A stretch of DNA of 64,000 nucleotides from Erysipelotrichaceae bacterium (lineage in GTDB: Bacteria; Bacillota_I; Bacilli_A; Erysipelotrichales; Erysipelotrichaceae). Below, in pieces: positions 21,262 to 43,306 of the stretch. Both the position numbers and the translations under genes were made by a program. The stretch is from NCBI GenBank assembly GCA_017404205.1, contig JAFRCV010000012.1, forward strand, positions 1-64,000. Direction: 5' to 3'. The stretch's first letter is position 1; each line of letters opens with the position of its first letter. The notes beneath the pieces are model-generated. The model searched no databases. It was given only the letters and a program-made list of their open reading frames with translations, and was not told the origin of the DNA.

Positions 21262-22653
21262 CTAAATGACTTTACCTGGATTCAAGATATTTTTAGGATC
21301 AAATACTTTTTTGATACCACGCATTAATTCAATCTGGTGATTGCCTAATTGATTCTTTAAATAATCCTTTTTAGCATAGCCAATTCCATGTTCGCCAGAT
21401 ACCATTCCATGGTATTCAATCGCTTTAGCATATAATAAATCAAATCCTTTATTCAAGCGTTTTTCGAATTCTTCTTGAGGCAAGCCATCTCTACATAAGT
21501 ATAAATGAAGATTGCCATCACCAGCATGTCCAAATGAAGGAATTCTTAAACCGACTTCTTTTGATACTTCATTTGTATATTTAATAAATTTAGCTACTTT
21601 ATCTTTTGGAACAACAACATCACATTCATCCATTAGATCAGTCGATGCCTTAATGGCTTCAAGCAAAGCGCCTCTTGTATTCCATACTGATTTTTTTCTT
21701 TCATCAGTATCAACAAAATAACCATCAATTGCGCCTAGCTCAATACACATATCAGCCACTTTATTATATTCAGCTTCAATTTCATTTGCGCTATTGCCAT
21801 CAAATGTTAATAAGATATATGCTTCATAATTTGTATCTGGGAATTTCTTTCCTAAGAAATCTTCAGCATATTTAATTGTGCTTAAAGACATAAATTCAAT
21901 AGCTGTCAAACTAGCTTTTGATTTTATTATTTCGGGAACTACTTCAATTGCTTTATCTAAAGTTTTAAATGGAAGAAGCATTGAAACTGATTCACTTGGT
22001 TTTGGAAGTAATTTCAAGATTGCTTCAGTAATTATACAAAGTGTTCCTTCTGAACCAATGATTAAATCTTTTAAATCATAGCCAGATGAGTTTTTCACAA
22101 CTTTACCACCGAAATGTTCAATATCGCCATTAGGCATTACAACTGTAAGCCCTCTTACAAAATCACGAGTAACACCATATTTAACCGCACGCATTCCTCC
22201 AGCATTAGTAGAAATATTTCCACCAATTGTAGCTGATTTCTCTCCTGGGTCTGGTGGATAGAAGAAATCTCTTTCTTCTACATAGGCTTGTAATTCCATT
22301 AATAGAACACCTGGCTCAACAGTTATTGTTAAATTATTTTCATCAAGTTCTAAAATATGATTCATTTGTTGAGTACAAATCATGATACCACCTTCAAGTG
22401 CAACAGCAGCACCAACTAAATCAGTACCAGAACCTCTTGCGACAACTGGTATTTCGTTATCGTGAGCATATTTCATTATTTTAGAAACTTCTTCTGTACT
22501 CAATACATTAATTAAAACATCAGGTTTAACTTCTATGCCACCTAATTCATCATGTCCATAATCATCAGATATTTCATCATGAACAAAGATTCTGCCTTCA
22601 GGAATAAATGATTTTAAATAAGCAATATCTGCACTATCTATTTTCTTATACAT
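21262..22653 (-). CDS. FAD-linked 2-hydroxyacid dehydrogenase (GlcD/LctD type)
   Basis: VAO/PCMH-fold flavoprotein. An upstream in-frame start at 22680 exists, but AGAGGAG lies before the ATG at 22653, giving 463 aa starting [13 protein letters not shown]. Motifs: [15 protein letters not shown], the FAD-binding [15 protein letters not shown] with [13 protein letters not shown], and C-terminal [11 protein letters not shown] and [10 protein letters not shown]. It oxidises D-lactate, glycolate or similar 2-hydroxy acids. It overlaps the EtfA gene by 8 bp. With EtfBA and LarA directly upstream, the set matches the electron-bifurcating lactate dehydrogenase (LctBCD) plus racemase of acetogens, so NAD and ferredoxin rather than oxygen would be the electron partners. 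Actual substrate unknown. Confidence 0.9.
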
Positions 22654-23842
22654 TAGCTTTCTCCTCTTTGATCTTTTCAATTAATTTAGGAACAATATCA
22701 TAAATATCACCAATAATGCAATAATTAGCAACATTGAATATTTGAGCATCAGGATCATTGTTTATTGCGATAATACAATCAGAATTATTCATACCTGATG
22801 TAAATTGAATAGCTCCAGATATACCTAAAGTAATAATCAATTTTGGTTTTACTGTTTTACCACTTAAACCAATTTGATGTTTAGAATCAAAGACACCAGC
22901 TTCTACTAATGGTCTAGTACATGCAACAACAGCATTTAGTTCATTAGCTAATTCTTCAACCATCTTTAAATCATCCGTTGATTTTAGTCCTCTTCCAACT
23001 GCTACTATAACATCTGCTTCAGCAATATCTAATTCTTTAGGTTTTTCTACTACTTCAATTATTTCATTACGGCTTTCTAACCATTCATCTTTTATTACAA
23101 CGTTTTCGACAATGCCACTTGGATTTGTAACTTTGCTTGGTGCATTGAAAATCTTATATCTTACAGTCGCAAATTGTGGACGATTGTTAGGGTTAATGAT
23201 TTGAGCCATAATATTGCCACCGAATGCTGGTCTAATCTGTACAAGATCAGTGTTTTCTTTCATTTCAAGTTTTGTACAATCAGCAGTTAAGCCTGTATGA
23301 AATCTAGCAGCGACTCTAGGTGCTAAGCTACGACCAACATTAGTTGCCCCAACAAGAATACTTGATGGTTTAATTCTTTTAATGAAATCTTCAAAACAAT
23401 TTGTATATTTTTCGATATCATAATCATCTAATCCTTTATGATCATATACAAACACTTTATCAACGCCATAGCTTAATAGTTCATCAACATTTTTCTTTGT
23501 GTTATATCCAATAACAATCGCATATACTGGATGATTAATTACAGATGCAAGTTCTTTTGCTTTACCGATTAATTCAAAAGTTACTTTATGTGTTATGCCA
23601 TGATCAATATCGGCATAAACACAAACGCCTTTATATTCATCTTTATTAATTAAGACTTTCTTTTCTTCTTCAAAAGTTATAACACCTTTAGGCCCTCTAT
23701 TAACGCAAATCTTACATAACTTACAACCAGCACTAATATCAATCTTGCCATCTTTATATGTAAGTGCACCAAATGGACAAAGACTTTCAAGTTCTTTGCC
23801 AGTAGTTTCATTAACTAACTCTTCATGAATTATTAATCCCAT
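22646..23842 (-). CDS. etfA: Electron transfer flavoprotein alpha subunit with N-terminal ferredoxin-like segment
   Basis: The 398-aa protein begins with a cysteine-bearing extension ([11 protein letters not shown], then [15 protein letters not shown]) like the Fe-S domain of LctC/CarE-type EtfA proteins. The Etf alpha/beta Rossmann domain follows, and then the FAD-binding C-terminal domain with [27 protein letters not shown] and [11 protein letters not shown]. It pairs with the EtfB gene 10 bp upstream. In bifurcating Etfs the dimer holds two FADs and couples NADH and ferredoxin to the dehydrogenase. The number of intact clusters cannot be settled by eye. Confidence 0.93.
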
Positions 23843-23852: not shown

Positions 23853-24638
23853 CTAAATGAATTTTCTATCTTTAATTATGTCAAATACTTTTAAAGCTAA
23901 ATCGCCATCAGAAATAATTTCTTTTTCATTTCGTTTATCGGGTTCAAAGATTCTTTCAACTTGGGTTGGTGAACCTTTTAATCCATAATGACTTTCATCT
24001 TTGTCTTCAACATCGTTAAAGGTAATCATTTTGATTAAATCTTTACAATCACCGAATTCTTTCTTTCTTTTAAAAGAAGGAAGTCTTGGAGTATTGACAT
24101 CGCCATCCATACATATTAGACATGGCTTTTTAATTCGACCTGTAACAATTTTGTTGTCAAGGTTTGAAATATATTTAATTGTTTCGCCTTCATCAAATAT
24201 TTCTTTAACATTTGTAACATGTGGAAGGTTTAAGTGTTCAGCAAGTTCGCTTCCAACTTGAGCTGTATCGCCATCAGTTGTTTGTTTGCCAGTCAAAATA
24301 ACATCAAATTCGCCAACCGCTTTTATACCACTGCATAGTGTATAAGAAGTCGCAAGAACATCAGCACCGCCAAATTTTCTATCAGTGATAAGTACGCCTT
24401 CATCACATCCCATATAAATAGCTTCCCTAATTGCTACAAGGGCGCTAGGAGGTCCCATTGAAACTACACTTACTTTGCCACCAAATTCACCTTTAAGCTT
24501 TAAAGCTGCTTCTAAAGCATAAAGATCATAGGGATTGGTTTTAGAAGATGCACCATCTCTAATCAATGTTCCAGTAACAGGATCAACATTGACATTTGTT
24601 GTACCTGGAACTTGTTTAACACATACAATAATTTTCAT
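23853..24638 (-). CDS. etfB: Electron transfer flavoprotein beta subunit
   Basis: Typical 261-aa EtfB: starts MKIIVCVKQVPGTTNV, with NPYDLYALEAAL and the FAD/NAD-binding TGKQTTDGDTAQVGSELAEHL region (about 115-140). Sits 11 bp after LarA and 10 bp before EtfA in one operon. In LctB-type complexes this subunit binds the bifurcating FAD and NAD. Confidence 0.96.
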   Translation of the reverse strand: MKIIVCVKQVPGTTNVNVDPVTGTLIRDGASSKTNPYDLYALEAALKLKGEFGGKVSVVSMGPPSALVAIREAIYMGCDEGVLITDRKFGGADVLATSYTLCSGIKAVGEFDVILTGKQTTDGDTAQVGSELAEHLNLPHVTNVKEIFDEGETIKYISNLDNKIVTGRIKKPCLICMDGDVNTPRLPSFKRKKEFGDCKDLIKMITFNDVEDKDESHYGLKGSPTQVERIFEPDKRNEKEIISDGDLALKVFDIIKDRKFI

Positions 24639-24649: not shown

Positions 24650-25915
24650 TTATTCTTTTACTATTATTGATATTCCATCAGGTAAGGCAAGAATACTTGC
24701 ATCATTACCCATTATTTCTCTAGCTAGCATAATTGCTTCATCAAGTGATTTTACAGGAAGCATCCTAAAGTTTTTAACCATTTCATCATCTAAGTCAGAA
24801 ACATAAATGACCGTCGCTTTTTTTAAGATTCGCGTAAGTATTTGAGCTTCCCATTGATCATCAACAGTATGCTCTGCATCTTTTTCCATAAATTCAGCAT
24901 ATAATTCATCAAGCGATTTATCATTATTAAATGTATCAAAGAATGATTGTCCACCATGGCCATCGCTTGCACTAGCAATCATAATTATGACACCACCTCT
25001 TTTTACACAAGCTTCTGCACTTGTCATGCCTTTAACAGATTGGTAGATATTTTGATCAAGCGGATAACCACCATTTGTGCTAATAACGATATCAGCTTCA
25101 ACTTTTTTAACGCCACATAATTTTTCTAAAAATTTTACTCCTTCTTTATGTGCTAAATCAACATCACCACTAACGGCATACACAACTTCTTTTTTTGCAT
25201 TAATTACAACATTACAAATAAACTGTAAACCAGCCTTTTTAGCTGCATATAACATATCAATATGTATAGGATTATTATCAAGAATTCCTGCTCTAGCATC
25301 TTTTGAATCAATAAATTTTGAACAATGATTAGCTAATATTGTCTTTTTTGAAGCGATGCCAGGCAAAACAGATTTTCTTCCGCCAGAATAGCCTGCAAAG
25401 AAATGTGGTTCAATAAAACCTTCAGAACAAAGCAAATCAGCTTCTACAACTATCTTATTAACAAGTAAATCACCACCTGATGGCAGTTTCCCTAAATAAG
25501 TCATCTCATCTTCTAATGATTTATGTATAATAATTTTTTCTTCACTTACGATCTTTTCACCAAATTTATTGATTAATTCTTCTTTAGTAGTAGGACGATG
25601 AAAACCGGTTGCCACAAGTAAAGTAATATTTGCATCTTTATTTCCTTTTCTTATTTCTTCTAGCATCAAAGGAATAATTATTTTACTTGGAACAGGACGT
25701 GTATGGTCTGAACAAATAATCACAACATTTTTCTTACCAATTGAAAGCTCGCTTAAACTTTTTGAACCAATAGGATTTTTTAAAGCATTTCTTACAAGTT
25801 CTATCTCACTTGTTTGTCTTACATACTCATCAATATGAGAATTTAAAACACCTATCAAATGTTCATCAAAATCATATTCAAGATATTTTTTTCCAAATGG
25901 AAATCTAACGTTCAT
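24650..25915 (-). CDS. larA: LarA-family nickel-dependent 2-hydroxyacid racemase/epimerase
   Basis: Lactate racemase family protein of 421 aa (DUF2088). Motifs: CSDHTRPVPSK, TGFHRPTTKEEL and EPHFFAGYSGGRKSVLPGI, which includes the histidine and the lysine that hold the nickel-pincer (NPN) cofactor in characterised LarA. The family includes racemases or epimerases for lactate, malate, other hydroxy acids and gluconate, so the substrate is open. Beside EtfBA/GlcD it parallels lctF of Acetobacterium, where it converts L- to D-lactate for oxidation. The cofactor-making genes larB, larC and larE are not in this window and would have to be elsewhere. RBS TAGGAG. Confidence 0.9.
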   Translation of the reverse strand: MNVRFPFGKKYLEYDFDEHLIGVLNSHIDEYVRQTSEIELVRNALKNPIGSKSLSELSIGKKNVVIICSDHTRPVPSKIIIPLMLEEIRKGNKDANITLLVATGFHRPTTKEELINKFGEKIVSEEKIIIHKSLEDEMTYLGKLPSGGDLLVNKIVVEADLLCSEGFIEPHFFAGYSGGRKSVLPGIASKKTILANHCSKFIDSKDARAGILDNNPIHIDMLYAAKKAGLQFICNVVINAKKEVVYAVSGDVDLAHKEGVKFLEKLCGVKKVEADIVISTNGGYPLDQNIYQSVKGMTSAEACVKRGGVIIMIASASDGHGGQSFFDTFNNDKSLDELYAEFMEKDAEHTVDDQWEAQILTRILKKATVIYVSDLDDEMVKNFRMLPVKSLDEAIMLAREIMGNDASILALPDGISIIVKE

Positions 25916-25923: not shown

Positions 25924-26745
25924 CTATAAGTATAAATGTTTATTGGCATATATCATGCCACAAAGAATATCTACTCCCGAATTAGAACCAACAGTGAATA
26001 GATCATTGATGTTTCTAATTAGTTCTTCTTCATTTTTTGAAAAACAAATTCTTTCATATAATTCAAATTTTTCTTCTTTTAATAAGGCATCATAATAAGT
26101 CTTACTTATTTGATTTGTGTTCTTATTAATAAATGGCAATAAAATATTTTTGATCTTGTTTATATATTTGAAATCAACAGCTTTATTAACATTTATTAAC
26201 CAATAAAGATAGCCAAATATAAAGTCATCACCTGAAGGAGTAAGACCTGGGCCAAGACCAACAATTTCCTTTAATCTTTCTTCGCTATCTTTATAATCTG
26301 CTAATACTTTTTTTAATCTTTTTGAATAGATATTATCTTCAAAGTTATCATCTATCAGGCTCTTAAATACGCCTTTGTTTGTGTTAAATAATTGTTTTGT
26401 CGCTATTTTCACAAATGTCTCATCACTTAAATAATTAGATATAAATGAAGGCAATTCTTTTATATTTAAATATATCTTTGCATCAGCTATGTTTAAGATA
26501 TTGTCATTTAATATGCCTAAACTGCCTTCATTTATTTTGCTTTGTTTAATAGTCTCTTTAAAATTGTTGATTCCGATTCCAAAAGGGATTAAACCATATT
26601 TATTATCATGAATCATGATAATTTTTCCTTTTTTATCTTTTAAATAGATGCCACTAGAGAAAAGACCAATAATATAGAATTGTTCAATCCCTTTTGAATA
26701 ATCTAAAATCAAATTTTTATTAACTAAACCTTCTACTTTAAGCAT
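25924..26745 (-). CDS. DUF2877 protein (AllH-like subunit)
   Basis: A 273-aa protein with the DUF2877 hallmark VGLGPGLTPSGDDFIFGYLYW near residue 180, and a late VGSNSGVDILCGMIYA. In E. coli its homologue YlbF (AllH) works with FdrA (AllF) and YlbE (AllG) as a three-subunit oxamate carbamoyltransferase. FdrA and the DUF1116 protein are both in this operon. The start overlaps the end of the acetate-kinase-like gene, so these two are coupled. In the E. coli locus the corresponding kinase is carbamate kinase. Confidence 0.88.
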   Translation of the reverse strand: MLKVEGLVNKNLILDYSKGIEQFYIIGLFSSGIYLKDKKGKIIMIHDNKYGLIPFGIGINNFKETIKQSKINEGSLGILNDNILNIADAKIYLNIKELPSFISNYLSDETFVKIATKQLFNTNKGVFKSLIDDNFEDNIYSKRLKKVLADYKDSEERLKEIVGLGPGLTPSGDDFIFGYLYWLINVNKAVDFKYINKIKNILLPFINKNTNQISKTYYDALLKEEKFELYERICFSKNEEELIRNINDLFTVGSNSGVDILCGMIYANKHLYL

Positions 26746-27931
26746 TCTTCTTGCTATTAATATAGTTATATGTTTCTATAGCGATTCCGAGTTCTTCATT
26801 AGCCGCAATAACTTGAATCTTAACTTTTGAATCATCGCTTGAAATATATCCATCAACAGAAATATTGTTGTTTTTGTTTTCATCAATTTTGATGCCAAAG
26901 CATTCAAGAGCTTTTGCGACACCACTTCTTACAAGCTTAGAGTTTTCACCTATACCACCAGTAAAGACTAATTTATCAAAGCCTCCCATTTCGGCATAAA
27001 ATGAACCGATATAGCGCACAATGTCATTCACAAAAACATCTATCGCTAATTTAGCTCTTTGCTCACCTTTTATTGCAGCAGCTTCAATCTCTCTAAAATC
27101 ATTATAACCAGACATGCCTTGTAAACCGCCTTTATGTGCTAGTCCTTCAATGATTTCTTCTTTACTAAGTCCTTCATTTTCTAAGAATAAAGCAATATAT
27201 GGATCACAATCACCACTTCTATTCATATGTGGTAAGCCTGTTTGCAAAGAGAAGCCAAAACTTGAATCATAGCTCTTGCCATCTTTAATTGCACAAATTG
27301 AACTGCTTCCACCCAAATGACAACCAATGATATATTTATAATCACCATCTTTTCTTGCTTTATTTGCAATATAAGTAAATGATGCACCATGGTAACCATT
27401 TTTAGCTATGCCATATTTTTCATACCACTCATAAGGTATAGGATACAGTTTGTTTTTTAAAGGAATTGTGCGATGGAATGATGTTTCAAAGACACCAATC
27501 ATTGGAATAGAACCTAATATAGTTTTAAATTCTTCTATAGCTCCAATATAAGCAGCATTATGAACAGGAGCAATGAATAAATAATCTTTCATTCCCTTCA
27601 TCACTTCTTCATTTAGTTCTACTGTGCCATTGAAGCCTTTAGAAATGACGGTTTTAAAGCCAATTGCTTCAATTTCATTGACGTCTTGAATAACACCAAG
27701 TTCTTTGTCACATAAATCTTTAATGAATAGATTAATACCACTTTGATAATCTTTTAAAGGAATATCATGTTCATTATGTTCTTTATCATTTTCATCATTT
27801 TTATAATGATAGATACCATTTAGTGAGCCAATTCTTTCAATTTTAGCATCACACAAAACATGCTCACTAGGCATATCATATAGTTTAAATTTTAATGATG
27901 TTGAACCGACATTGCTTATTAAAACAAGCAT
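26738..27931 (-). CDS. Acetate-kinase-family acyl-phosphate kinase (divergent)
   Basis: The 397-aa ASKHA-fold kinase aligns over the whole AckA length: SNVGSTSLKFKLYD (canonical NxGSSSxKF), FETSFHRT (canonical FDTAFH), NGYHGASFTYI, HLGGSSSI, NRSGDCDPY and FTGGIGEN. Several canonical positions differ: the HRxVHGG segment with the substrate-binding Arg reads GFKTVISKG, HLGNGAS reads HLGGSSS, and the second His of HGTSH is Phe. It is therefore a kinase making ATP from an acyl phosphate, perhaps not acetyl phosphate. Its placement between KDG kinase and DUF2877, where carbamate kinase stands in ureide operons, suggests the acyl phosphate is made by the FdrA complex. Confidence 0.85.
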   Translation of the reverse strand: MLVLISNVGSTSLKFKLYDMPSEHVLCDAKIERIGSLNGIYHYKNDENDKEHNEHDIPLKDYQSGINLFIKDLCDKELGVIQDVNEIEAIGFKTVISKGFNGTVELNEEVMKGMKDYLFIAPVHNAAYIGAIEEFKTILGSIPMIGVFETSFHRTIPLKNKLYPIPYEWYEKYGIAKNGYHGASFTYIANKARKDGDYKYIIGCHLGGSSSICAIKDGKSYDSSFGFSLQTGLPHMNRSGDCDPYIALFLENEGLSKEEIIEGLAHKGGLQGMSGYNDFREIEAAAIKGEQRAKLAIDVFVNDIVRYIGSFYAEMGGFDKLVFTGGIGENSKLVRSGVAKALECFGIKIDENKNNNISVDGYISSDDSKVKIQVIAANEELGIAIETYNYINSKKNA

Positions 27932-28960
27932 TTATCTTTGAACCCTTCCACTAGCATTACCACCAGCTAATGATTCAACTTCAGCAACACTAACTTGGTT
28001 GAAGTCTTTTTCAATACATTGTTTTAGACAAGATGCTGCTACAGCAAATTCAATAGCTTTTTGATCATCATATCCGCTGATTAATGAATAGATTAATCCA
28101 CCACCAAATGAATCGCCACCGCCAACTCTATCAACTATTTGAATACGATATTCTTTAGAGAATGTAGCTGAATCACTAGCGCTATCATAAATCATACCTG
28201 CCCAATCATTAATCGATGCCGAAATAGAACCTCTTAATGTGAAGGCAATCTTCTTACAACCAAATTGTTTAGCTAATTTTCTTGCGACAGATACATATCC
28301 TTCATGATCTAATTTACCAGAATTAATATCAGTATTTTCAGCTTCAATTCCAAAGACATCTTTAGCATCTTCTTCGTTGGCAATACATACATCAACATAT
28401 GGAACAAGTCTAGACATGCATTCTTGAGCTTCACTTGTAGTCCATAATTTCTTACGATAATTTAAATCACAAGAAATTGTGATACCTTTTTCTTTAGCTT
28501 TCTTACATGCTTCTAGACATATTTCAGGTAAGTCTCCACCTAGTGCTGGAGTAATACCTGTGAAATGGAACCATTTTGCGTCTTTGAAGATTTCATCCCA
28601 ATCAAATTCTTCTTTTTTAGCTAAAGCAATTGATGAACCAGCACGGTCATAAATTACTTTTGAAGCTCTTTGAGAAGCTCCTTTTTCACAGAAATAAATG
28701 CCAAGTCTTGGCCCACCTCTTAAGATATAATCAGTTCTAACGCCATATTTTCTTAATGAATTGATACAAGCTTGCCCGATTTCTTGATTTGGAACTTTAC
28801 ATACAAAATATGCATCTAAGCCATAATTCGCAAGTGATACTGCGACATTAGCTTCTGCACCTGAATAAGATACATCAAAACTATTAGCTTGTACAAAACG
28901 ATAATATCCAACAGGATCTAGACGCATCATAATTTCACCGAATGTAACAACTTTACTCAT
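27932..28960 (-). CDS. kdgK: PfkB-family sugar kinase, probable 2-keto-3-deoxygluconate kinase
   Basis: Ribokinase-fold kinase of 342 aa. The start MSKVVTFGEIMMRLDP and SYSGAEANVAVSLA form the N-terminal substrate loop. The C-terminal signature GGGDSFGGGLIYSL holds the catalytic Asp (usual GAGD here GGGD). KDG kinases phosphorylate 2-keto-3-deoxy acids to KDPG. The neighbouring KDPG aldolase 2 bp downstream of the next gene in the unit supports this role (Entner-Doudoroff-type lower pathway). Specificity for KDG rather than another keto-deoxy acid is inferred from that pair. Confidence 0.88.
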   Translation of the reverse strand: MSKVVTFGEIMMRLDPVGYYRFVQANSFDVSYSGAEANVAVSLANYGLDAYFVCKVPNQEIGQACINSLRKYGVRTDYILRGGPRLGIYFCEKGASQRASKVIYDRAGSSIALAKKEEFDWDEIFKDAKWFHFTGITPALGGDLPEICLEACKKAKEKGITISCDLNYRKKLWTTSEAQECMSRLVPYVDVCIANEEDAKDVFGIEAENTDINSGKLDHEGYVSVARKLAKQFGCKKIAFTLRGSISASINDWAGMIYDSASDSATFSKEYRIQIVDRVGGGDSFGGGLIYSLISGYDDQKAIEFAVAASCLKQCIEKDFNQVSVAEVESLAGGNASGRVQR

Positions 28961-28962: not shown

Positions 28963-29616
28963 TTACTCCTTTATTGCTTCTAGCAATTTTATTGCAGCTT
29001 CTGTGAGTTTATCATATTCACCAGATTCAATCCATTCTTTTTTGGCTAAGTTGCCGCCGATACCGGCACCTACACAACCTGCTTCAAAGTATTCTTTAAT
29101 ATTCTTTTCATTGACACCACCAACTGCTAGTAGTGGCACATGATTAATTGGTGCTCTTAATGCTTTAACATAAGCAGGAGAGAAACAGCCAATTGGGAAT
29201 AGTTTTACAAAATCGGCACCCGCATTGTAAGCAGTTAAAACTTCACTTGGTGTCAACGCACCGGGCATAGAAATCATTCCAAATTCCTTTGTTCTTTTAA
29301 TAACTTCAACATTTGTATCTGGCGAAATAATATATTCTCCATGATTCTTATGTGTTAAATAAACAAGTTTTGTATTAGTAACTGTACCAGCACCAATATG
29401 AACTCTTCCTTTGAATTCTTCAACAAGTTTTCCAATTAAACAAGCTGTGTCTTCCCATGTTTCTGGTTTTGCTTGATTATAAGTAATTTCCGCAAAACGA
29501 ATACCGCCTTTATATAGTGCTTCAACAACTTTAGAACACTTTTCTAAAGAAGCGCCTCTAATAATAGCGATAATTTTCTCTTTTTTTATTTCTTGAATTA
29601 ATTCTTCTTGATTCAT
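28963..29616 (-). CDS. eda: 2-dehydro-3-deoxy-phosphogluconate (KDPG) aldolase
   Basis: Class I aldolase of 217 aa with the family pattern IIRGASLEKC, AEITYNQ (catalytic Glu), IGAGTVTN and the Schiff-base Lys in DFVKLFPIG, followed by AVGGVNEKN. It splits KDPG or related compounds into pyruvate plus glyceraldehyde 3-phosphate. The gene precedes the KDG kinase by 2 bp. The N-terminus and length are standard. In this operon it offers a phosphorylative branch alongside the proposed phosphorolytic one. Confidence 0.93.
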   Translation of the reverse strand: MNQEELIQEIKKEKIIAIIRGASLEKCSKVVEALYKGGIRFAEITYNQAKPETWEDTACLIGKLVEEFKGRVHIGAGTVTNTKLVYLTHKNHGEYIISPDTNVEVIKRTKEFGMISMPGALTPSEVLTAYNAGADFVKLFPIGCFSPAYVKALRAPINHVPLLAVGGVNEKNIKEYFEAGCVGAGIGGNLAKKEWIESGEYDKLTEAAIKLLEAIKE

Positions 29617-29625: not shown

Positions 29626-31038
29626 CTATAGTCCATATTTTTCGCAATATGCTTTGAAAGCTTTTTCGAAACACTCCATTGGAACTCTTGCCATACCAGC
29701 ACCAATCAAACCGCCTTCTTTATTGAACATACCACCATGGATACATGGACAAATTCCTGTTTCAATAACTTTCATCATATCAATACCGCTTGGTAAGAAG
29801 TCAAAGTCTAAATTCGGAATTGGATAATTATAGTTTTTAGAGATACAAATCTTTTCCATTTCACGAGTTTGGCCAATAGCTTCTTTTAATGTCATACCAC
29901 GTAAGTTACAAACAATTGGCGAAGCAGCAGCAGCTAAGCCACCTAGGCCAGCACATTCAACAACACAACTATCGCCAATCCAAGGAAGTTGATCATCAAT
30001 AGTGAATTTGCTTGATGTATATTGGCCAGTCATATATGGAGCTTCTGTCTCAAACCATTCATCGCCTAGTGCAGCAATCTTAATTCCAAAACGAACACCA
30101 TTGCCACAAACAGCAGTAACCATTGTTGAATATTCTCTTCCTACATTGCCTAAATTTGCCGCTCTACTAGCGCCTTGTCCAAAGCAGTGGAAGAAACGAG
30201 GTGTTTCAACAATATAATTCATTGAATCTAGAACTTGTTGTCTTGGCATATCATCAATCTTAGCCATATCTAATAAAATTTGATGTTCAAATAATAAGTC
30301 AGCTGCAGATTGTCTAGTATGGTTTTCATCACCCATTTGCATACTTTCTGCCAAAATTGGTTTAAGAGGTAAACCACCTTTATTTTTTGCAACTTTATCC
30401 ATTGGTGGAAGCAAATGATCACGCATATAATAAAGGTTTTCAGCAATTTCTTTAGAGTATAGTCCCCAACCACAGAAACCACCTTGGAACTTAATGCCTT
30501 CAGCAGGGAAAGTAGCAGTAACTTTGCCATTGTGACGATCTTTTACAATTATCATCGCAACGTTCTTAGTAATGATTCCTGTACCAGCACCAACAGTATT
30601 TGTATCAAGAGCAGAGATCATCTTAATTTTGCCAGATTTAATTAATTCAAGAGCTTCTTCTTCAGTTTTTGCCCAACCTTCAAATAGACAAGCTGAAACC
30701 ATACCTCTTTGATGAAGCATAACCATTTCATCAAATGAAATTGGTGGGCCAGAGTGTGTTACTGTATAGTCATCAAGACCTTCGATAACATTGCCTGCCA
30801 AATCAACACCTACCCATACTGGATCAGCATTGATTAACATATTAACAGCATCATCATTGGCTTTGTTCATCTTTTCAGCAAAATCAGAAGCCATTATTTC
30901 TTTAACTTTATTAGCCAATTCATCATTAATCTTTACTGGAGGTTTCCAATCAATTTGGGCAACTTCAACGCCTTGTTCAGCCAAAGCATCGTAAAAAGAA
31001 GAAATACCAATATTAATTACTTTCATTTTCTTATCCAT
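29626..31038 (-). CDS. DUF1116 protein (YlbE/AllG-like subunit)
   Basis: The 470-aa protein has the DUF1116 pattern: early DPVWVGVDLAG, then HQRGMVSACLFEGWA, ALDTNTVGAGTG and CGNGVRFGIKI, and the late ICPCIHGGMFNKEGGLIGAGMARVP. E. coli YlbE (AllG) is one of three subunits of oxamate carbamoyltransferase (AllFGH), which phosphorolyses oxalurate. It overlaps FdrA by 8 bp. In ureide operons the set accompanies allantoin genes and carbamate kinase, none of which is here. The sugar-acid neighbours suggest a different substrate. Confidence 0.9.
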   Translation of the reverse strand: MDKKMKVINIGISSFYDALAEQGVEVAQIDWKPPVKINDELANKVKEIMASDFAEKMNKANDDAVNMLINADPVWVGVDLAGNVIEGLDDYTVTHSGPPISFDEMVMLHQRGMVSACLFEGWAKTEEEALELIKSGKIKMISALDTNTVGAGTGIITKNVAMIIVKDRHNGKVTATFPAEGIKFQGGFCGWGLYSKEIAENLYYMRDHLLPPMDKVAKNKGGLPLKPILAESMQMGDENHTRQSAADLLFEHQILLDMAKIDDMPRQQVLDSMNYIVETPRFFHCFGQGASRAANLGNVGREYSTMVTAVCGNGVRFGIKIAALGDEWFETEAPYMTGQYTSSKFTIDDQLPWIGDSCVVECAGLGGLAAAASPIVCNLRGMTLKEAIGQTREMEKICISKNYNYPIPNLDFDFLPSGIDMMKVIETGICPCIHGGMFNKEGGLIGAGMARVPMECFEKAFKAYCEKYGL

Positions 31039-32572
31039 TTACTTGCCTTCTTTCTAATTCATCCATCATAGCTGAAGCAATTTTAGCACTTTCATAATTG
31101 CTTCCAGTTACAATAACGCCAGCATCTTTTAGTAATTTAACCTTTTCTTTAATGTTTTGAGGATCATTATCTGAACCACAAATATTAGCAATAAAGATAA
31201 CAGGCAAGCCACTATCTCTTAGTTTTTTAATTTCTTTAGCATGAGAACCAATTGGATCGCGGGCTACACCAGGACCAGTGATGAAGTCTAACAACACTAC
31301 GCCAACTTCAGGATCTTTTAATTCTTCGCGAAGTCTCTTTAATCTTAATTCTGGATTAAATACCGGATGTGGAGCTTCGGCAGTAAAATCTTCAGCGCCC
31401 ATATCAAGAATTGTGTGGCCTACAGATTTGTGACTATCAGCTAATTTTTCAGCATATTTATTGCTTAAATTTGAATGCAACAAGATATTCTTGTTATGTC
31501 TGCTGAAATATAATAGACCTTCTTCCGTAAATGTTCCACCACAATATAAACCACGGAAATATTTTCTTTCTAAAGGAAGTTTTGCGACTTCTTCTTTAGC
31601 TAATTGTTTAATTTCTTCATCTGAAAATTGTGGATCTTGTTTGACACCTGTAATCTTTTCAACAGCTTTTAAACCAGCTTCTTCAAGCGAGAAAGCAGCT
31701 TCAACTTTGTGCTTTTCGAATAAAGATTCATCACTTCCAAGGAATATCGCAATAACGGGTTTTTTACATTCATCTGCACGATATAAAACCTTATCCATTA
31801 CATTGATATCTGCTAATTTAGAAACAAGAACGATTACTTTTGTATTGTCATCTTTTTCAAGAGCTTCAATACCTTCTAACATGGTGATACCACCAATTTC
31901 TGGATATAAATCTCTTCCGCCAGTACCAATAATTTGTGAAACACCTAAACCACGATGTTCGATTAGACAAGCTACTTCTTGAGCACCAGAACCAGATGCA
32001 CCTACAATGCCAACAGGGCCAAATGAATTCATTGAACCAGCTGCAAATGCTACACCATTAATTAAGCCAACACCGGCATCAGGTCCCATAACTAACTTGC
32101 CTTTTTTCTTTCCATATTCTTTGATTTTTCTTTCTTCATCCAAAGTGACATTATCAGAGAAGATGAATAAATCTAATCCTTTATCTAAGGCTTTTATAGC
32201 TTCTGTATATACATATTCACCTGGAAGAGATATTTGACATAAATCAAATGTCTCAGCCTTTAATTCTGCATCATCTAAGCTAGTAAATTCAACATCACTT
32301 TCAACGTTTTTACGATCAATGATGTCCATAGCTGCTTGAATTGCTTCATCACATCTTTTTTCGCTTTCGCAATCAACAGCGATAACTAAATCATCAGGAG
32401 TGATGTCGCTTGGTAATTCATAACCTTCTTCTTTTAATACACGTTGATTGATGATAGTAGCCATTGCAACTTCAGAGTTTTCAACACCCTCAAGTTCATT
32501 AACTCTACCAGCTACAGACATCAAACTTACCGAATCGACATAACGCTTCTTTTTAACAAGAACTTTTCTCAT
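31031..32572 (-). CDS. fdrA: FdrA family protein (AllF-like subunit, succinyl-CoA-synthetase fold)
   Basis: FdrA homologue of 513 aa. The acyl-CoA-synthetase-like Rossmann repeats show KLVMGPDAGVGLINGVAFA, GIVGASGSGAQEVACLI and GTGGRDLYPEIGG, with a second half containing DFITGPGVARDPIGSH. In E. coli FdrA (AllF) forms the oxamate carbamoyltransferase with DUF1116 and DUF2877 proteins; the fold is suited to a phosphoryl or acyl-phosphate intermediate. It follows the dehydratase by 18 bp with a GAAAGGA site and overlaps DUF1116. All three subunits are present, though DUF2877 is split off by three genes. Confidence 0.92.
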   Translation of the reverse strand: MRKVLVKKKRYVDSVSLMSVAGRVNELEGVENSEVAMATIINQRVLKEEGYELPSDITPDDLVIAVDCESEKRCDEAIQAAMDIIDRKNVESDVEFTSLDDAELKAETFDLCQISLPGEYVYTEAIKALDKGLDLFIFSDNVTLDEERKIKEYGKKKGKLVMGPDAGVGLINGVAFAAGSMNSFGPVGIVGASGSGAQEVACLIEHRGLGVSQIIGTGGRDLYPEIGGITMLEGIEALEKDDNTKVIVLVSKLADINVMDKVLYRADECKKPVIAIFLGSDESLFEKHKVEAAFSLEEAGLKAVEKITGVKQDPQFSDEEIKQLAKEEVAKLPLERKYFRGLYCGGTFTEEGLLYFSRHNKNILLHSNLSNKYAEKLADSHKSVGHTILDMGAEDFTAEAPHPVFNPELRLKRLREELKDPEVGVVLLDFITGPGVARDPIGSHAKEIKKLRDSGLPVIFIANICGSDNDPQNIKEKVKLLKDAGVIVTGSNYESAKIASAMMDELERRQVNG

Positions 32573-32590: not shown

Positions 32591-34261
32591 TTATTCCCAA
32601 ATACCACCTTTTGACATTGGACCAACATTCTTCGCAAATAAACGTAAGAAACGTGGATAATTTTCGCCTTTGAATTCCCAATGGAATTCAGCTTTACGTT
32701 TTTCTAATTCTTCATCGCTAACTTCCATATTGATTGTTCTATTGACAATATCAATATCAATCATATCGCCATCTTTAATTAAGCCTAATGGACCATAAGC
32801 AGCTTCTGGAGAAATATAACCAACACTTAATCCTGATGTTCCACCAGAGAAACGGCCATCAGTTAAGATAGCACATGAATTAAATAATCCTTCATAGCCT
32901 TTTAATTCTTCTTGGAATGTGAATGCTGTTGTGCCAAAACGAGCTTTTAATCCTAAAAATCTAACAACACATGCATCACCTTTGACAATCTTGCCACTAC
33001 GAAGTGCTGCTAAAGCATCATCTAGTGAATCAAAACATTTTGCAGGACCACGGAAAGTCATTAAATTATGTGGAACAGCAGCAATCTTAATAATGCCACC
33101 TTCAGGAGCAATATTGCCATATAAAACACCAATGCCAGGTTGTTTTGAAACTGGATTGTCTAGACTATGAATTACATCATCGTTATAACATTTAGCAAGT
33201 TTAATGTTGTCACCCAATGAATTTCCTGTAACTGTTAATACATCAGTATTTAATACGCTTTCCATTTTCTTCATTAAAGCAGCTAAACCACCAGCTAAAT
33301 CTAAATCTTCTAAACTATATTCACCGCCAGGAGCAAGATGAGATAATAGAGGAACTTCATTTGAAGCTTTATCGAATTCTTTCCACCAAGGAAGATCATA
33401 ACCAGCTTCATTAGCGATTGCTGGAATATGAAGAATCAAGTTTGCAGATGCTGCAACAGCCATATCAACTTTAATAGCGTTCTTAATTGATTCTGGAGTA
33501 ATAATATCTCTTGCAGTAACGCCTTCATAAACAAGATTCATAATTTGTTTACCAGCACGATAAGCTAGATTATAGATTTCTGAACTATCAGCAGCCATTG
33601 TAGAGTTATTAGGCAATGTCATACCCATAGCTTCTGCCATCATACACATTGAGTTAGCAGTAACCATTGATGTACATGCTCCACAAGAACCCCAAGAGTG
33701 TTCAATTAAACCGTTATAGAAATCCATATCAATTTTGCCTTCAGCAGCCATACCAACTTTATCTTGAGCACGAATATGTAGACGTTTCTCACCTGCATAT
33801 CTGCCAAGAGGCATATAGCCACCAGTAACAATAATTGTTGGAATATTAAGTCTAGCAGCACCCATTAAATGTCCTGGAACTACTGAGTCACAAGTACTAA
33901 GCATTACCATGCCATCAAAGAAGTTGCCTTCTACTGTCAATTCAACTTGGTCAGCAATTGAGTTACGGCTAGGAACTTCAATATAACGAGGATCCTTAAG
34001 AACCATACCATCACAAATACCAGTTGTTTCTACTTCTAATGGCAAACCACCAGCTTCTCTAATGCCTTGTTTAACACGTTCAGCTAATTTATCAAGATGA
34101 ACATGACCAGGATTATATTCATTCCAAGAGTTAACAACACCAATTAATGGTCTTCTTTGTTCCTCATTGGTATAACCCATACCACACATTAATCCTCTAC
34201 GACATTCAGAAGCCTCAGAGAATTCCCAGCATGAACGCATATCTTCATACTTCTTTTTCAT
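32591..34261 (-). CDS. IlvD/Edd-family dehydratase, probably a sugar-acid dehydratase
   Basis: The 556-aa protein shows the three cysteine sites of the Fe-S dehydratases: TTGICDG, STCDSVVPGHLMG and GSCGACTSMVTANSM, followed by LPNNSTMAA and the C-terminal LTDGRFSGGTSGLSVGYISPEA. Members dehydrate dihydroxy acids: branched-chain intermediates (IlvD), phosphogluconate (Edd), or aldonates such as arabonate, xylonate and gluconate. The operon contains no branched-chain amino acid genes but does contain KDG kinase and KDPG aldolase, so conversion of an aldonate to a 2-keto-3-deoxy acid is the best reading. The third motif differs from the usual DHAD GACGGMYTANTM. Confidence 0.88.
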   Translation of the reverse strand: MKKKYEDMRSCWEFSEASECRRGLMCGMGYTNEEQRRPLIGVVNSWNEYNPGHVHLDKLAERVKQGIREAGGLPLEVETTGICDGMVLKDPRYIEVPSRNSIADQVELTVEGNFFDGMVMLSTCDSVVPGHLMGAARLNIPTIIVTGGYMPLGRYAGEKRLHIRAQDKVGMAAEGKIDMDFYNGLIEHSWGSCGACTSMVTANSMCMMAEAMGMTLPNNSTMAADSSEIYNLAYRAGKQIMNLVYEGVTARDIITPESIKNAIKVDMAVAASANLILHIPAIANEAGYDLPWWKEFDKASNEVPLLSHLAPGGEYSLEDLDLAGGLAALMKKMESVLNTDVLTVTGNSLGDNIKLAKCYNDDVIHSLDNPVSKQPGIGVLYGNIAPEGGIIKIAAVPHNLMTFRGPAKCFDSLDDALAALRSGKIVKGDACVVRFLGLKARFGTTAFTFQEELKGYEGLFNSCAILTDGRFSGGTSGLSVGYISPEAAYGPLGLIKDGDMIDIDIVNRTINMEVSDEELEKRKAEFHWEFKGENYPRFLRLFAKNVGPMSKGGIWE

Positions 34262-34286: not shown

Positions 34287-35885
34287 TTAATTATTATTCA
34301 ACGATATTTTCATCGTTTCTAGTTGTTTGATAATTTCTGTATGATAGTTTTTACTAGGAGCATCGGGATAATCACTTCTCTGATGGCATCCACAACTATC
34401 TTTTCTCTCTTTAGCAGCTAATACAAGAGCTTTAGAAACAATTAAATTATTTTCAAGTGCTAAGCGCTTATAGTTTATTTCATCATCAACACTTTTTACA
34501 CAGTGTTTTACTTCATCTAATAACTCATCTAAGGTCTTGTATGCTTTTTCTAATAATTCTTGATTACGCAAGACTCTAGCGCCACTTCCTAAAGCATCTT
34601 TTCTTAAATCTTCTATTTCCTTTAATCTAGATAAACTGATTTCTTCATTTAATCCACCGATTGGTTCATAATTGAATTCTTCAATATCTAAACTATTAAT
34701 ATCATCAATGATTGTTTTTGCAGCAATGCGTGAGAATATAAGCGTTTCACTTCCTGCTGATCCACCAATACGATTTGCACCATGTAAATGGCCAGCAGCT
34801 TCTCCTGCTACATATAAGCCTTTAATATCGCTATGACATTTTTCATCAATCTTAACGCCACCTAAACTTGTATGAGCAGCATTAGCTAATTCGACTTTCT
34901 CTTTGCAAAGATTGATTCCAACATCAGCATATCTTTTCACAAATGGTTCATATGCTTCATGAAGTCTATTCTCATCAACACCAGATGCATCAAAGAAAAT
35001 ACCTCCATGTTCACTTCCATTACCAGCTAATAATTCTTTTTCAATTGCTAAAGACAAAACATCTTTATTGACTCTTTCGCCATCTTCACCATATTTGAGC
35101 ATAAATCTTTCGCCTTTATTATTGGTCATGATTGCTCCTTCATAAAATAAAGTTGTAATCATGCCTTTGCCTCTTATTTGTAAAGGCCATACAGCGCTTG
35201 ATGGTTCAAATTGAACAAATTCCATATCAATTAATGGACATCCCGCTTCATAAGCCATTGCAGCACCATCACCAGATATATCTTTTGAATTTGATGTAAA
35301 TGGGAATATACCAGCAAAGCCTCCGCTACATAGTAATACAGCTTTACTATATAGATTTACAAATTTCTTTTCTTCAAAGTCATAGCAATATGCACCATTA
35401 ACTTTATCGTTTTTCTTTAGTAATCTTAATGCTCTAAGATTTTCTAATACTTCAAAGTTTTCATCTTTTGCTAATAATTCATGAAGGATACTTAAAACTT
35501 TAGCTCCTGTATGATTGCCTTGTCCAACAACCCTTCCATAACTTGATCCTAAAGATTTACGGGCTTTTAAATTACCTTTTTCATCTTTATCAAATTCAAA
35601 GCCTAAATCTTCAAGATATTTTTGAATTGTTAAACTACCATAACACAATTCATCAACTAACTTTTTATCGCCTTGGTTTCTTCCAGAAACAACTGTATCT
35701 TTAATAAAGACATCAACATTGTCCCCTTGTTGAACGCCACAAATATTAAAGCCCGAGATACCAGGAGAGGCACCTAAACCATTTCGTAACATTCTTACTT
35801 TTAAACCGGCTTTGACTAGTTCATAAGCTGCTACAGTACCTGTCATTCCTCCACCGATTATTAAGACATCAGTATTGTTGTACAT
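34287..35885 (-). CDS. FAD-dependent oxidoreductase, fumarate reductase/L-aspartate oxidase-like flavoprotein
   Basis: The ATG at 35885 (after AAAGGAA, overlapping the SDR stop region) is preferred over a TTG five codons upstream, giving 532 aa. The dinucleotide motif VLIIGGGMTGTVAAYELV is followed by the flavoprotein pattern CSGGFAGIFPFTSN, SGDGAAMAYEAGCPL, HTSLGGVKID and GLYVAGEAAG. The C-terminal family motif usually read as RGAHxRxDFP is CGCHQRSDYP here. No quinone-anchor or Fe-S subunit genes are nearby, so it is probably soluble. Its substrate is unknown; it may oxidise a sugar, lactone or keto acid in the pathway. Confidence 0.82.
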   Translation of the reverse strand: MYNNTDVLIIGGGMTGTVAAYELVKAGLKVRMLRNGLGASPGISGFNICGVQQGDNVDVFIKDTVVSGRNQGDKKLVDELCYGSLTIQKYLEDLGFEFDKDEKGNLKARKSLGSSYGRVVGQGNHTGAKVLSILHELLAKDENFEVLENLRALRLLKKNDKVNGAYCYDFEEKKFVNLYSKAVLLCSGGFAGIFPFTSNSKDISGDGAAMAYEAGCPLIDMEFVQFEPSSAVWPLQIRGKGMITTLFYEGAIMTNNKGERFMLKYGEDGERVNKDVLSLAIEKELLAGNGSEHGGIFFDASGVDENRLHEAYEPFVKRYADVGINLCKEKVELANAAHTSLGGVKIDEKCHSDIKGLYVAGEAAGHLHGANRIGGSAGSETLIFSRIAAKTIIDDINSLDIEEFNYEPIGGLNEEISLSRLKEIEDLRKDALGSGARVLRNQELLEKAYKTLDELLDEVKHCVKSVDDEINYKRLALENNLIVSKALVLAAKERKDSCGCHQRSDYPDAPSKNYHTEIIKQLETMKISLNNN

Positions 35886-35886
35886 T

Positions 35887-36696
35887 TTATTTCCTTTCAA
35901 AATCTTCCTTCATAGAAACAATCATGCCTGTTACTGATTGTCCACCATCAACATGGAATGTTTGGCCAACAATAAAACGTGTATGTTCAGGATCAGCAAG
36001 ATATAATACCATTTCTACAATATCGTTTGTACAACCTAAAATACCAGCAGGTATATGATCAGTAAATGCTTTTACTTGTTCAGGAGAATATCTCTTAGTT
36101 GCATCAGTTGCGATAAAGCCAGGAGCTATGCCATTTACTCTAATTCCATACGGAGCAACTTCAATTCCTAAAGCCTTAGTGAACATATCAAGTCCAGCTT
36201 TAGCAGCACAATAAGGGATAAATTTTCTCTTTACCCAAGTAACAGTGCCATGTACTGAGGAAATATTGATGATAGAACCATTAATGTTGTTCTCTTTCAT
36301 ATTTCTAATTGCATATTGTGAACAATATGCTGCAGCATTAAGATTAAGATTGATTTGGCTGTCCCAATATTCAAATGGAATATCTTCAAATTCACCAGCA
36401 GGAATCTTTAAAGCTCCGCCTGCATTATTTACTAATACATCAATAGTCTTAAAATCTTCCAAGAAACTTTCCATTAAATGAAATACTTCTTGCGGATTAC
36501 TTAATTCAACTTTGTAAAGAACAGCTTTAACGCCTAATTCTTCACACTTCTTTAAGATAATCTCAGCTTTTTCTTTGTTGCGATTGTAAGTTAATCCAAC
36601 ATTGCATCCTTCTTTAGCAAAAGCTAAAGCGATGTCAGCACCAATACCACTAGATGAACCAGTAATCAATGCGTTTTTGTTTTTTAAATATCCCAT
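35887..36696 (-). CDS. Short-chain dehydrogenase/reductase (SDR)
   Basis: Classical SDR of 269 aa: NAD(P)-binding TGSSSGIG, the structural NNAGGAL, catalytic Ser in NISSVHG, and Tyr/Lys in YCAAK. Typical members oxidise sugars (glucose or arabinose 1-dehydrogenase type) or the C4 hydroxyl of 2-keto-3-deoxy aldonates. Both jobs would fit between a possible lactonase and an aldonate dehydratase. Starts at the last base of the MBL gene, overlapping by one base; ends just before the flavoprotein. The basic-residue pattern after the first strand (TYNRNKEKA) suggests NADP may be used. Confidence 0.9.
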   Translation of the reverse strand: MGYLKNKNALITGSSSGIGADIALAFAKEGCNVGLTYNRNKEKAEIILKKCEELGVKAVLYKVELSNPQEVFHLMESFLEDFKTIDVLVNNAGGALKIPAGEFEDIPFEYWDSQINLNLNAAAYCSQYAIRNMKENNINGSIINISSVHGTVTWVKRKFIPYCAAKAGLDMFTKALGIEVAPYGIRVNGIAPGFIATDATKRYSPEQVKAFTDHIPAGILGCTNDIVEMVLYLADPEHTRFIVGQTFHVDGGQSVTGMIVSMKEDFERK

Positions 36697-37574
36697 TATA
36701 AAATCTCCTCTTTATATTTATTAATATGTTCATTAACTGTATAAACGGCCATGAACAATTTTGGTGGCATTCCACATCCTAAATCATTAATCATTTTAAC
36801 AGCAATATCTCCTGCAGAATTCATACCTTCAGATAATCTGTTGTTGATATATTTCTGATAAACGTTGGTAATTGTTAATGATAATTCCAAAGCTTTTTTT
36901 ACATTATCTTTTCCTTTGATAATGGAACCAATTGAATCATAATCATGTCCACAAATAATATTATCAATATCCATATTTAGTAATCTATGCATACTACTTC
37001 GATAATCATCTAAACTTTGATAAAAAGCGATTCCTTGCGTTGGCGTACCATTTCCTTGAATGCTATCACCAGTAATTATTGTCTTAGTCTTTTTGTCATA
37101 CCAACAAACACAACCTGAATCATGTCCTGGTGTTTCAATAATAGATAAACGCTTTGTTAATGATTCACCACTTTTTAATACAATGTCAACTTTAACACCT
37201 TTTAAATAAGATTGAGGAGCAGGTGAATATTCAGGATATTTAGTACGAATTGAAATAGCTTTTTGAGCTGGATTTTCAACATTATCCTTATCACTTTCGC
37301 TTGCGACAACTTTAATCTTTGGACATAATTCTTTAATACGATAATATGAGCCAATATGGTCTCCATGACTATGAGTATTTGTTAAATAAGTAATATCTTC
37401 TAATTTGTATCCAAGTTCATTTAATGCTGGAATGATATACTCATCACAATCTTCAAGTCTAGAGCCAGAATCAATTAAAACTTTTTCATCATCATCAACA
37501 AGTGTTACTCCAGTCCATGAATCACCAAATGGCACTTTTAATAAATATAGACCTTCAAATATTTCCTTAAACAT
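36696..37574 (-). CDS. Metallo-beta-lactamase-fold hydrolase (possible lactonase)
   Basis: A 292-aa MBL-fold enzyme with the zinc motif NTHSHGDHIGSY, later ETPGHDSGCVCW, TGDSIQ and ICGHDYDS, so both metal sites look complete. The fold covers thioesterases, glyoxalase II, lactonases and others. At the head of the sugar-acid genes, hydrolysis of an aldonolactone is an attractive but unproven role. It follows the GH43 lipoprotein gene by 8 bp and overlaps the SDR start. No signal peptide, so cytoplasmic. Confidence 0.85.
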   Translation of the reverse strand: MFKEIFEGLYLLKVPFGDSWTGVTLVDDDEKVLIDSGSRLEDCDEYIIPALNELGYKLEDITYLTNTHSHGDHIGSYYRIKELCPKIKVVASESDKDNVENPAQKAISIRTKYPEYSPAPQSYLKGVKVDIVLKSGESLTKRLSIIETPGHDSGCVCWYDKKTKTIITGDSIQGNGTPTQGIAFYQSLDDYRSSMHRLLNMDIDNIICGHDYDSIGSIIKGKDNVKKALELSLTITNVYQKYINNRLSEGMNSAGDIAVKMINDLGCGMPPKLFMAVYTVNEHINKYKEEIL

Positions 37575-39199: not shown

Positions 39200-39201
39200 A
39201 A

Positions 39202-41586: not shown

Positions 41587-42417
41587 CTAACCTTTTATTG
41601 AAGAACCAATTTGGCTAGCAATGATACGTCTTTGCAAGATGCAATAAACGATGATGACAGGCAAGATACCTATTGTACATGTTGCACATGCCATAGCTAA
41701 ATTTCTATCGCCACCTACCATTGCGAAAGCAGATCTAATGACCAATATAATTGGTTGTTTACTTGAATTGTTTATTAAATATAATGGCATCAAATAATTG
41801 TTCCATGCGCCAATTGCGATCATTATTGCACGAGTAACAGTTATTGGTGTCAATTGCGGTAATATTATTCTAAAGAAAGTATTAGTTACATTAGCACCAT
41901 CAATTCTTGCGGCTTCATCTAAAGCCATTGGAATTGAATTGATAAAATTCATATAAATAAATGAACAAGATGGTATACCACCAGCTGCTGTCAATAAAGC
42001 TAGCGCAAATAGTGAGTTTGTTAAACCAAGTTTAGTCATAAGAGCATATGTACCAACAAGGGTAACAACACCTGGAACCATCATAATCAACATTTGAACA
42101 GATTTAATGCTTCTTGTTGTACGCTTACTTCCTCTTGATAAGCCATAACCAGCCATTGAACCAAGTACGACTTCCAAAAGAATTGTTAAGCCTGAGTAAA
42201 TGATCGAATTCTTAAATCCTATCCAAACTTGTTTGTTCAAGAATGCATCTTTAAAGTTTGAAAGTTTAACTGTTTCTGGTGGTAATAAACGTGATGAATA
42301 ATCAGAAATATCTCTTACTGATAAATTCAAAAGTTCATATAATGGCCAAATAGCAATTAAACAAACAATAATGGCAACAATTAATATCCAAAGACGAAAT
42401 TTCTTTTTCTTTTTCAT
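41587..42417 (-). CDS. Carbohydrate ABC transporter permease (MalG/LacG type)
   Basis: 276-aa membrane protein with six predicted helices and the binding-protein-dependent permease loop with an EAA-type motif (MALDEAARIDGANVTNTFFRIILPQ, about residues 165-190). The start MKKKKKFRLWILIVAIIVCLIAIWPLYELLNLS matches MalG-like permeases. Follows the partner permease by one base. With the binding lipoprotein and partner permease it forms an oligosaccharide importer; the ATPase is not in this operon and is likely the MsmK-like protein at 56712-57875. Confidence 0.93.
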   Translation of the reverse strand: MKKKKKFRLWILIVAIIVCLIAIWPLYELLNLSVRDISDYSSRLLPPETVKLSNFKDAFLNKQVWIGFKNSIIYSGLTILLEVVLGSMAGYGLSRGSKRTTRSIKSVQMLIMMVPGVVTLVGTYALMTKLGLTNSLFALALLTAAGGIPSCSFIYMNFINSIPMALDEAARIDGANVTNTFFRIILPQLTPITVTRAIMIAIGAWNNYLMPLYLINNSSKQPIILVIRSAFAMVGGDRNLAMACATCTIGILPVIIVYCILQRRIIASQIGSSIKG

Positions 42418-42418
42418 A

Positions 42419-43291: not shown

Positions 43292-43306
43292 ATTTACTCC
43301 TAAGGG

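Follow-up and report, generated by a model that had tools for sequence, protein, structure and literature searches.

The genome of an Erysipelotrichaceae bacterium of the gut or rumen was found to carry a sugar-acid operon in which a divergent acetokinase-family protein, AckL, stands where carbamate kinase would be expected. The operon lies in a 64,000-nucleotide stretch, here called the window, at positions 1 to 64,000 of contig JAFRCV010000012.1 (assembly GCA_017404205.1). As a preliminary description of this DNA had recognised, the gene is adjacent to a DUF2877 (AllH) gene, and its position matches that of AllK in the E. coli allFGHK cluster. The kinase group to which AckL belongs is a new, selected subfamily. 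AckL probably turns an unusual, energy-rich intermediate of a sugar pathway into ATP. The more specific proposal, that it is an acyl-phosphate kinase adapted to what the operon's AllF-AllG-AllH homologues produce by phosphorolytic cleavage of a diketo acid, is given an even chance of being right.

The operon and its relatives

Twenty genes lie on the same strand between positions 46712 and 21262, spaced -35 to +25 nt apart (Table 1), a layout which implies a single operon. Their family matches suggest that they encode aldonate chemistry, in the form of an SDR, a lactonase-like protein, an IlvD dehydratase, a KDG kinase and a KDPG aldolase; no nitrogen or allantoin genes are among these matches. 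The best PDB matches of the SDR are glucose 1-dehydrogenases. The flavoprotein is a fixed member of the operon; if the SDR were an aldose dehydrogenase, oxidation at C4 would have to fall to this protein. AllF has CoA_binding and Ligase_CoA domains and is related to succinyl-CoA synthetase; its score of 361.6 bits against the FdrA model NF004760 is below the cut-off of 433. Elsewhere in the window, a third GH43 protein (12620-14140, minus strand) adjoins a 1142-aa protein without a Pfam match (14192-17620), and a 2578-aa protein with four matches to the Flg_new (Listeria-Bacteroides) repeat (47897-55633, minus strand) is likely to be a surface protein.

Table 1. Genes of the operon and of the sister clade AckLb; positions refer to the window unless a locus is named
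Feature	Position	Strand	Remarks
First operon gene, weakly GH76/GH127-like	44649..46712	-	
Sugar ABC transporter	41587..44635	-	Permease 41587-42417 and binding protein 43307-44635 by Pfam
Second ABC permease	42419-43291	-	Predicted from position
Two GH43-family proteins	37583..41577	-	
Metallo-beta-lactamase-fold hydrolase	36696..37574	-	Proposed lactonase
SDR dehydrogenase	35887..36696	-	Proposed 2-keto-3-deoxy acid 4-dehydrogenase (precedent described in PMC6336799) or aldose 1-dehydrogenase
FrdA/NadB-like soluble flavoprotein	34287..35900	-	
IlvD/Edd-family dehydratase	32591..34261	-	Proposed to dehydrate an aldonate to a 2-keto-3-deoxy acid
AllF/FdrA homologue	31031..32572	-	Succinyl-CoA-synthetase-like, 513 aa
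AllG homologue (DUF1116)	29626..31038	-	470 aa; Pfam AllG 193.4 bits, cut-off 27
KDPG/KHG aldolase family	28963..29616	-	
PfkB-family kinase (KdgK)	27932..28960	-	2-keto-3-deoxy-sugar-acid kinase-like
AckL, divergent acetokinase-family protein	26738..27931	-	Proposed 2-hydroxyacyl-phosphate:ADP phosphotransferase
AllH homologue (DUF2877)	25924..26745	-	273 aa, third OXTCase-type subunit; Pfam AllH 64.1 bits, cut-off 25
LarA, nickel-dependent lactate racemase	24650..25915	-	NF033504 604.7 bits, cut-off 460
EtfB	23853..24638	-	ETF family by Pfam
EtfA, LctC-like	22646..23842	-	517.5 bits to A. woodii LctC
FAD-linked D-lactate dehydrogenase, LctD-like	21262..22680	-	684.5 bits to A. woodii LctD
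AckLb	L120:9166-10353	+	K91/E148 changes as in AckL
AckLb	L121:9495-10682	+	K91/E148 changes as in AckL
AckLb	L122:9300-10487	-	K91/E148 changes as in AckL

The AckL gene is an intact reading frame of 397 aa, with an ATG start and no internal stops, flanked by the genes for the PfkB sugar kinase and AllH, the latter overlapping it by 8 nt. The protein matches the Pfam Acetate_kinase model over its full length (326 bits) and passes the cut-off of the NCBIfam ackA model TIGR00016 (328.7 bits, cut-off 293.4). Membership of the Buk family was considered and rejected, as the butyrate kinase model TIGR02707 gives 56 bits, below its cut-off of 289.1, and the Buk rows are separate in the tree. The window genome (1.62 Mb, 99.7% complete) encodes one ordinary acetate kinase elsewhere (492 bits, contig C3), and an ordinary AckA is likewise present in the four other operon-bearing genomes searched.

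Relatives of the operon were sought by scanning 84,980 species genomes with an AllG pattern. Five close loci were found (87-94% identity), one in a Solobacterium MAG and four in Lachnospiraceae MAGs; the other full-length AllG matches listed are at most 37% identical to the window AllG, of which the window genome holds a single copy. Gene order is the same in four of the five loci, the fifth (L025) being a 3.4-kb contig that ends before the place of AckL, such that AckL is found in all four loci of sufficient length. The block GH43-GH43-MBL-SDR-FAD-IlvD-AllF-AllG-aldolase-KdgK-AckL is common to the window and these four loci. As they come from independent assemblies representing two bacterial families, a chimera is unlikely. 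AllH comes next in three of the four, those that do not end before it. The three loci visible beyond AllH show that the LarA/LctBCD-like genes are not constant: LarA-EtfBA-LDH follows in the window, EtfBA-LDH without LarA in L026, and neither in L023. In further draws of 296, 392, 397 and 398 genomes, no more distant AllG of the sugar type was found, and the only matches of the window clade were in the window genome, G478 (a query centre) and G480.

The kinase gene accompanying other AllF-AllG pairs was also surveyed, in 45 stretches from 43 genomes that were chosen matches, a part of all those available. Carbamate kinase is present in 33, acetokinase in none and neither in 12, some of the latter being short stretches; these counts were made by BLAST with the window and E. 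coli genes, which a very divergent kinase would escape, and from the draw that gave 23 non-window matches, 18 were retrieved. At the five related loci of the window clade the corresponding numbers are no carbamate kinase, four AckL and one neither, on the short contig L025. This comparison of acetokinase counts, 0/45 against 4/5, implies that the swap is specific to the window clade within this sample. Both E. coli clusters, allFGH-allK (where allK is annotated as ybcF) and yahEFG-yahI, contain a carbamate kinase. In L070-L080 and L082-L087, AllF and AllG appear to share one frame of approximately 1000 aa, apparently a naturally fused pair of OXTCase subunits, and such single frames were seen in many Lachnospiraceae-family allantoin clusters.

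Active site and phylogeny of AckL

The motifs GFKTVISKG, HLGGSSS and HGASF are all present in AckL as originally quoted. In the numbering of M. thermophila AckA, to which AckL was aligned, they include the changes H94I, T182A and H184F. AckL can be compared with the known acetate and propionate kinases (AckA and TdcD; M. thermophila 1G99/1TUY, T. maritima-type 2IIR), with which it has a full-length family match and core residues in common: N7, S12, K14, H123, H180, R241, GIGEN and E384 are unchanged. It differs from them in H90F, R91K, N211G and G212S, in the deletion of one residue at G95/G96 (95/96) and in forming its own clade, as well as in D148E (VFDT to VFET), P232L and L233Q, which, along with E234T, are additions to the preliminary description.

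Larger changes among these affect the catalytic Arg91 and the metal-ligand Asp148, which are Lys and Glu in all five AckL proteins and Arg and Asp in all 37 ordinary AckA proteins compared, a set consisting mostly of the best-scoring Clostridia matches with a few others. With the sister clade AckLb included, R91K and D148E are fixed in 8/8 proteins and occur in 0/37 ordinary AckA. The full combination of F90, K91, E148, G211, S212, L232 and Q233 is found in 5/5 AckL and 3/3 AckLb, while the ordinary enzymes have H90, R91, D148, G212 and P232 in 37/37 cases and N211 in 35/37. The Phe in the HGTSH motif and the loss of His94 are peculiar to AckL, AckLb retaining both His residues.

The altered motifs had been thought to line the acetyl-phosphate site, a view that does not agree with the residue lists of PMC3475010, in which Arg91 and the HLGNG loop are nucleotide or phosphate contacts, while the metal ligands include Asp150 of Salmonella AckA, a residue that we take to line up with Asp148. 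The acyl pocket given by the same source comprises V93, L122, F179, P232 and R241. Two of these, V93 and R241, are the same in AckL; L122 is replaced by Val, P232 by Leu and, in four of the five AckL proteins, F179 by Tyr. The mutation R91A is described in PMC6461089 as leaving 0.6% (PgAck) or 0.3% (MtAck) of kcat. As charge is retained at both position 91 and position 148 of AckL, the protein is expected from its sequence to be an active but re-tuned enzyme. An AlphaFold model of AckL, built on an 8-row alignment, has pLDDT values below 50 near the active site (residues 150-180 and 223-242), which makes it unreliable for the pocket. The suggestion that the motif changes point to a larger or hydroxylated acyl phosphate survives in part: lactoyl phosphate or glycoloyl phosphate would fit the operon context, but the motifs alone are not proof of a larger pocket. 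Hence the case for a hydroxyacyl phosphate is made by the operon and not by the motifs.

Phylogenetic analysis placed the FdrA-linked kinases in a clade of their own with a support of 100/100, as the preliminary description had envisaged. AckL, AckLb and AckA are each set apart from the other sequences by a branch with full support (100/100, 100/99 and 100/100, respectively). In a quick tree rooted with Buk, from which four rows were omitted (L096, L028, L029 and L131), AckL and AckLb together are nested among the AckA sequences, a placement that is weakly supported (82). The four other AckL proteins are 65-81% identical to that of the window; identity is 43-47% between AckL and AckLb, and at most 45% between AckL and ordinary AckA among the matches listed. 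Chance or decay as the source of the AckL changes was rejected, because all five AckL proteins keep them and the 4 of 10 pairs with unsaturated dS give dN/dS values of 0.05-0.15.

These data bear on the possibility that AckL still has the function of an ordinary acetate or propionate kinase, its recruitment being fortuitous and its active site subject to neutral drift. The score above the TIGR00016 cut-off, the retention of R241, H180, H123, E384, N7 and V93 and the weakly supported nesting within AckA are all consistent with such an origin. It is nevertheless considered unlikely, given the separate ordinary AckA in the window genome and the four other operon-bearing genomes, the fixation of the changes across 65-81% identity under the low dN/dS ratio where this is measurable, the occurrence of most of the changes in AckLb as well and the constant company of AllF and AllG at all loci of sufficient length.

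The AckLb genes are found in three Clostridia genomes, in a cluster that, by Pfam annotation of one of the three stretches (L120), encodes a liv-type ABC transporter, a UxaA-C-like dehydratase, a 2-hydroxyacid dehydrogenase and LarA-like and HMGL-like proteins. No AllF, AllG or AllH was detected in the three AckLb stretches, so the residue changes cannot be tied to AllFGH alone. The presence of a LarA-family protein near both AckL and AckLb is no more than a hint that the two have a 2-hydroxyacyl theme in common.

A proposed phosphorolytic pathway and its alternatives

In E. coli, AllFGH converts oxalurate and phosphate to oxamate and carbamoyl phosphate, from which carbamate kinase produces ATP. 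PMC11326118 describes AllFGH as the oxamate carbamoyltransferase, reported to act on carbamoyl phosphate and oxamate and no CoA, and AllK as the carbamate kinase. The window operon resembles allFGHK, and the paralogous yahEFG-yahI, in combining three subunits with an acyl-phosphate kinase, and by analogy the same logic of phosphorolysis followed by ATP formation may apply. It differs in having an acetokinase in place of carbamate kinase, sugar-acid in place of allantoin genes and changed columns in AllF and AllG. Comparing 5 window-clade AllF proteins with 46 others, and 6 window-clade AllG proteins with 49 others, reveals 16 and 22 clade-specific changes, respectively, at columns at least 95% invariant elsewhere, alongside 62 and 56 invariant columns shared by the clade and the others. 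Several of the changed columns lose polar side chains (R190G, R312G and D353W in AllG; H437A and C166A in AllF). Such a pattern would be expected if the substrate had changed, although it does not reveal which substrate is used.

In one alternative, the AllFGH homologue would have remained a transcarbamoylase, or would have a ureido compound as its substrate, and AckL would be an acetokinase using carbamoyl phosphate in the role of carbamate kinase. Acetokinases with this ability are known from the older literature, AckL holds the carbamate kinase place of allFGHK, and AllG and AllH pass the Pfam cut-offs for OXTCase subunits. Against this stand the changes just described at otherwise invariant columns (16 in AllF, 22 in AllG), the score of AllF below the FdrA cut-off and the nature of the flanking genes, which belong to sugar-acid or lactate metabolism, whereas the family matches of the operon include nothing from nitrogen or allantoin metabolism. 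On balance this explanation appears improbable.

From the genes, their order and conservation, the separate clade and the residue changes, a pathway can be put forward as a strong hypothesis, in which the substrate, the direction and every reaction are predictions. Oxalurate (H2N-CO-NH-CO-COO-) is isosteric with a 2,4-diketo acid (R-CO-CH2-CO-COO-), which has CH2 where oxalurate has NH, and the classical isosteric partner of pyruvate is oxamate; the simplest interpretation is therefore that the homologue applies the phosphorolysis of AllFGH to the CH2 counterpart of its substrate. By an estimate from the energies of the thiolase reaction and of acetyl phosphate, a beta-diketone should set free enough energy on hydrolysis to cover the formation of an acyl phosphate. 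The IlvD dehydratase would make a 2-keto-3-deoxy sugar acid, which the SDR or the flavoprotein would oxidise at C4 to a 2,4-diketo-3-deoxy acid. The AllFGH homologue would then cleave this with phosphate, in a phosphorolytic retro-Claisen reaction, to pyruvate and a 2-hydroxyacyl phosphate (lactoyl or glycoloyl phosphate), from which AckL would move the phosphate to ADP, giving ATP. The acid released would most likely be lactate, if the sugar were a 6-deoxy sugar, or glycolate, if it were a pentose. Sugar acids bearing a hydroxyl at C6 would be the substrates of the KDG kinase and aldolase, whereas 6-deoxy acids presumably cannot be phosphorylated at that carbon.

This scheme parallels Route III, the non-phosphorylative breakdown of pentoses and 6-deoxyhexoses, in its dehydratase, its possible 4-oxidation by an SDR and its C-C cleavage. 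As outlined in PMC6336799, the SDR of Route III oxidises the 2-keto-3-deoxy acid at C4, and an FAH-family enzyme hydrolyses the resulting 2,4-diketo acid to pyruvate and either glycolate (from 2-keto-3-deoxypentonate) or lactate (from L-KDF). By contrast, the cleavage proposed here is phosphorolytic and ATP-yielding, and no match to an FAH-family hydrolase was found in four of the five operon-bearing genomes, that of the window included. The fifth, G480, does carry an FAH-family protein, which counts against the pathway. Among the titles and abstract openings listed in searches of the open-licence literature, as far as these were read, none concerned phosphorolytic cleavage of diketo acids or an acetokinase linked to AllFGH. 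The broader proposition, that the AllFGH family, known for transcarbamoylation, also includes a C-C phosphorolase of the retro-Claisen type for 2,4-diketo-3-deoxy sugar acids, giving anaerobes one ATP where aerobes use hydrolysis, and that AckL founds a subfamily of 2-hydroxyacyl-phosphate kinases which also serves the AckLb pathway, is advanced tentatively, its probability being judged a little short of even.

Acetokinase reactions are reversible, and AckL might instead activate an acid, spending ATP to form a hydroxyacyl phosphate whose acyl group AllF would pass on, for instance to CoA. The CoA_binding and Ligase_CoA domains of AllF and its kinship with succinyl-CoA synthetase would suit this role. 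Conversely, the AllFGH reaction reported for E. coli proceeds without CoA (PMC11326118), no gene using lactoyl-CoA was noticed in the operon, and the end of the operon looks set to oxidise lactate, making this direction a doubtful one.

Lactate would be oxidised by the LarA/LctBCD-like module. Its ETF and dehydrogenase genes resemble those of the electron-confurcating lactate dehydrogenase LctBCD, with matches of 684 bits to LctD and 517 bits to LctC, and its LarA is over the lactate racemase cut-off. The A. woodii lct operon has the same EtfB-EtfA-LDH and lactate racemase, and the account in PMC10472528 pairs these Lct genes with a racemase and a permease. The window module differs in lying inside a sugar-acid operon and in the lack of any match to a lactate permease in 5/5 operon-bearing genomes. 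Racemase and Lct genes without a permease match suggest that the lactate is made inside the cell.

It is also possible, with a probability set clearly below even, that the same phosphorolysis usually yields glycolate, from L-arabinose or another pentose, or glycerate, from a hexose, the LarA/Lct proteins then serving another flux. The absence of any match to the L-arabinose isomerase AraA in the five operon genomes (G000, G477, G478, G479 and G480), taken with the presence of GH43 genes, points towards arabinose and glycolate, with which LarA and LctBCD fit less well: the LctD-like dehydrogenase scores 684 bits, against 227 for its next PDB match, glycolate oxidase, and LarA would be of no use for glycolate. 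The L-rhamnose isomerase RhaA is found in four of the five operon-bearing genomes, so L-rhamnose has another route there. The balance tips slightly towards lactate over glycolate. The two acids may both be formed, as the enzymes of Route III accept both pentose and 6-deoxyhexose acids, according to PMC6336799.

If the proposal is correct, these bacteria would conserve energy that known pathways dissipate as heat at this step, through a new form of substrate-level phosphorylation in which ATP derives directly from C-C cleavage without CoA. The recently identified AllFGH enzyme would thereby be extended from nitrogen to carbon chemistry, and the labels 'acetate kinase' and 'FdrA', when given to genes of sugar operons, might mask other functions. 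Gut and rumen Bacillota would gain a named, testable pathway for the breakdown of sugar acids.
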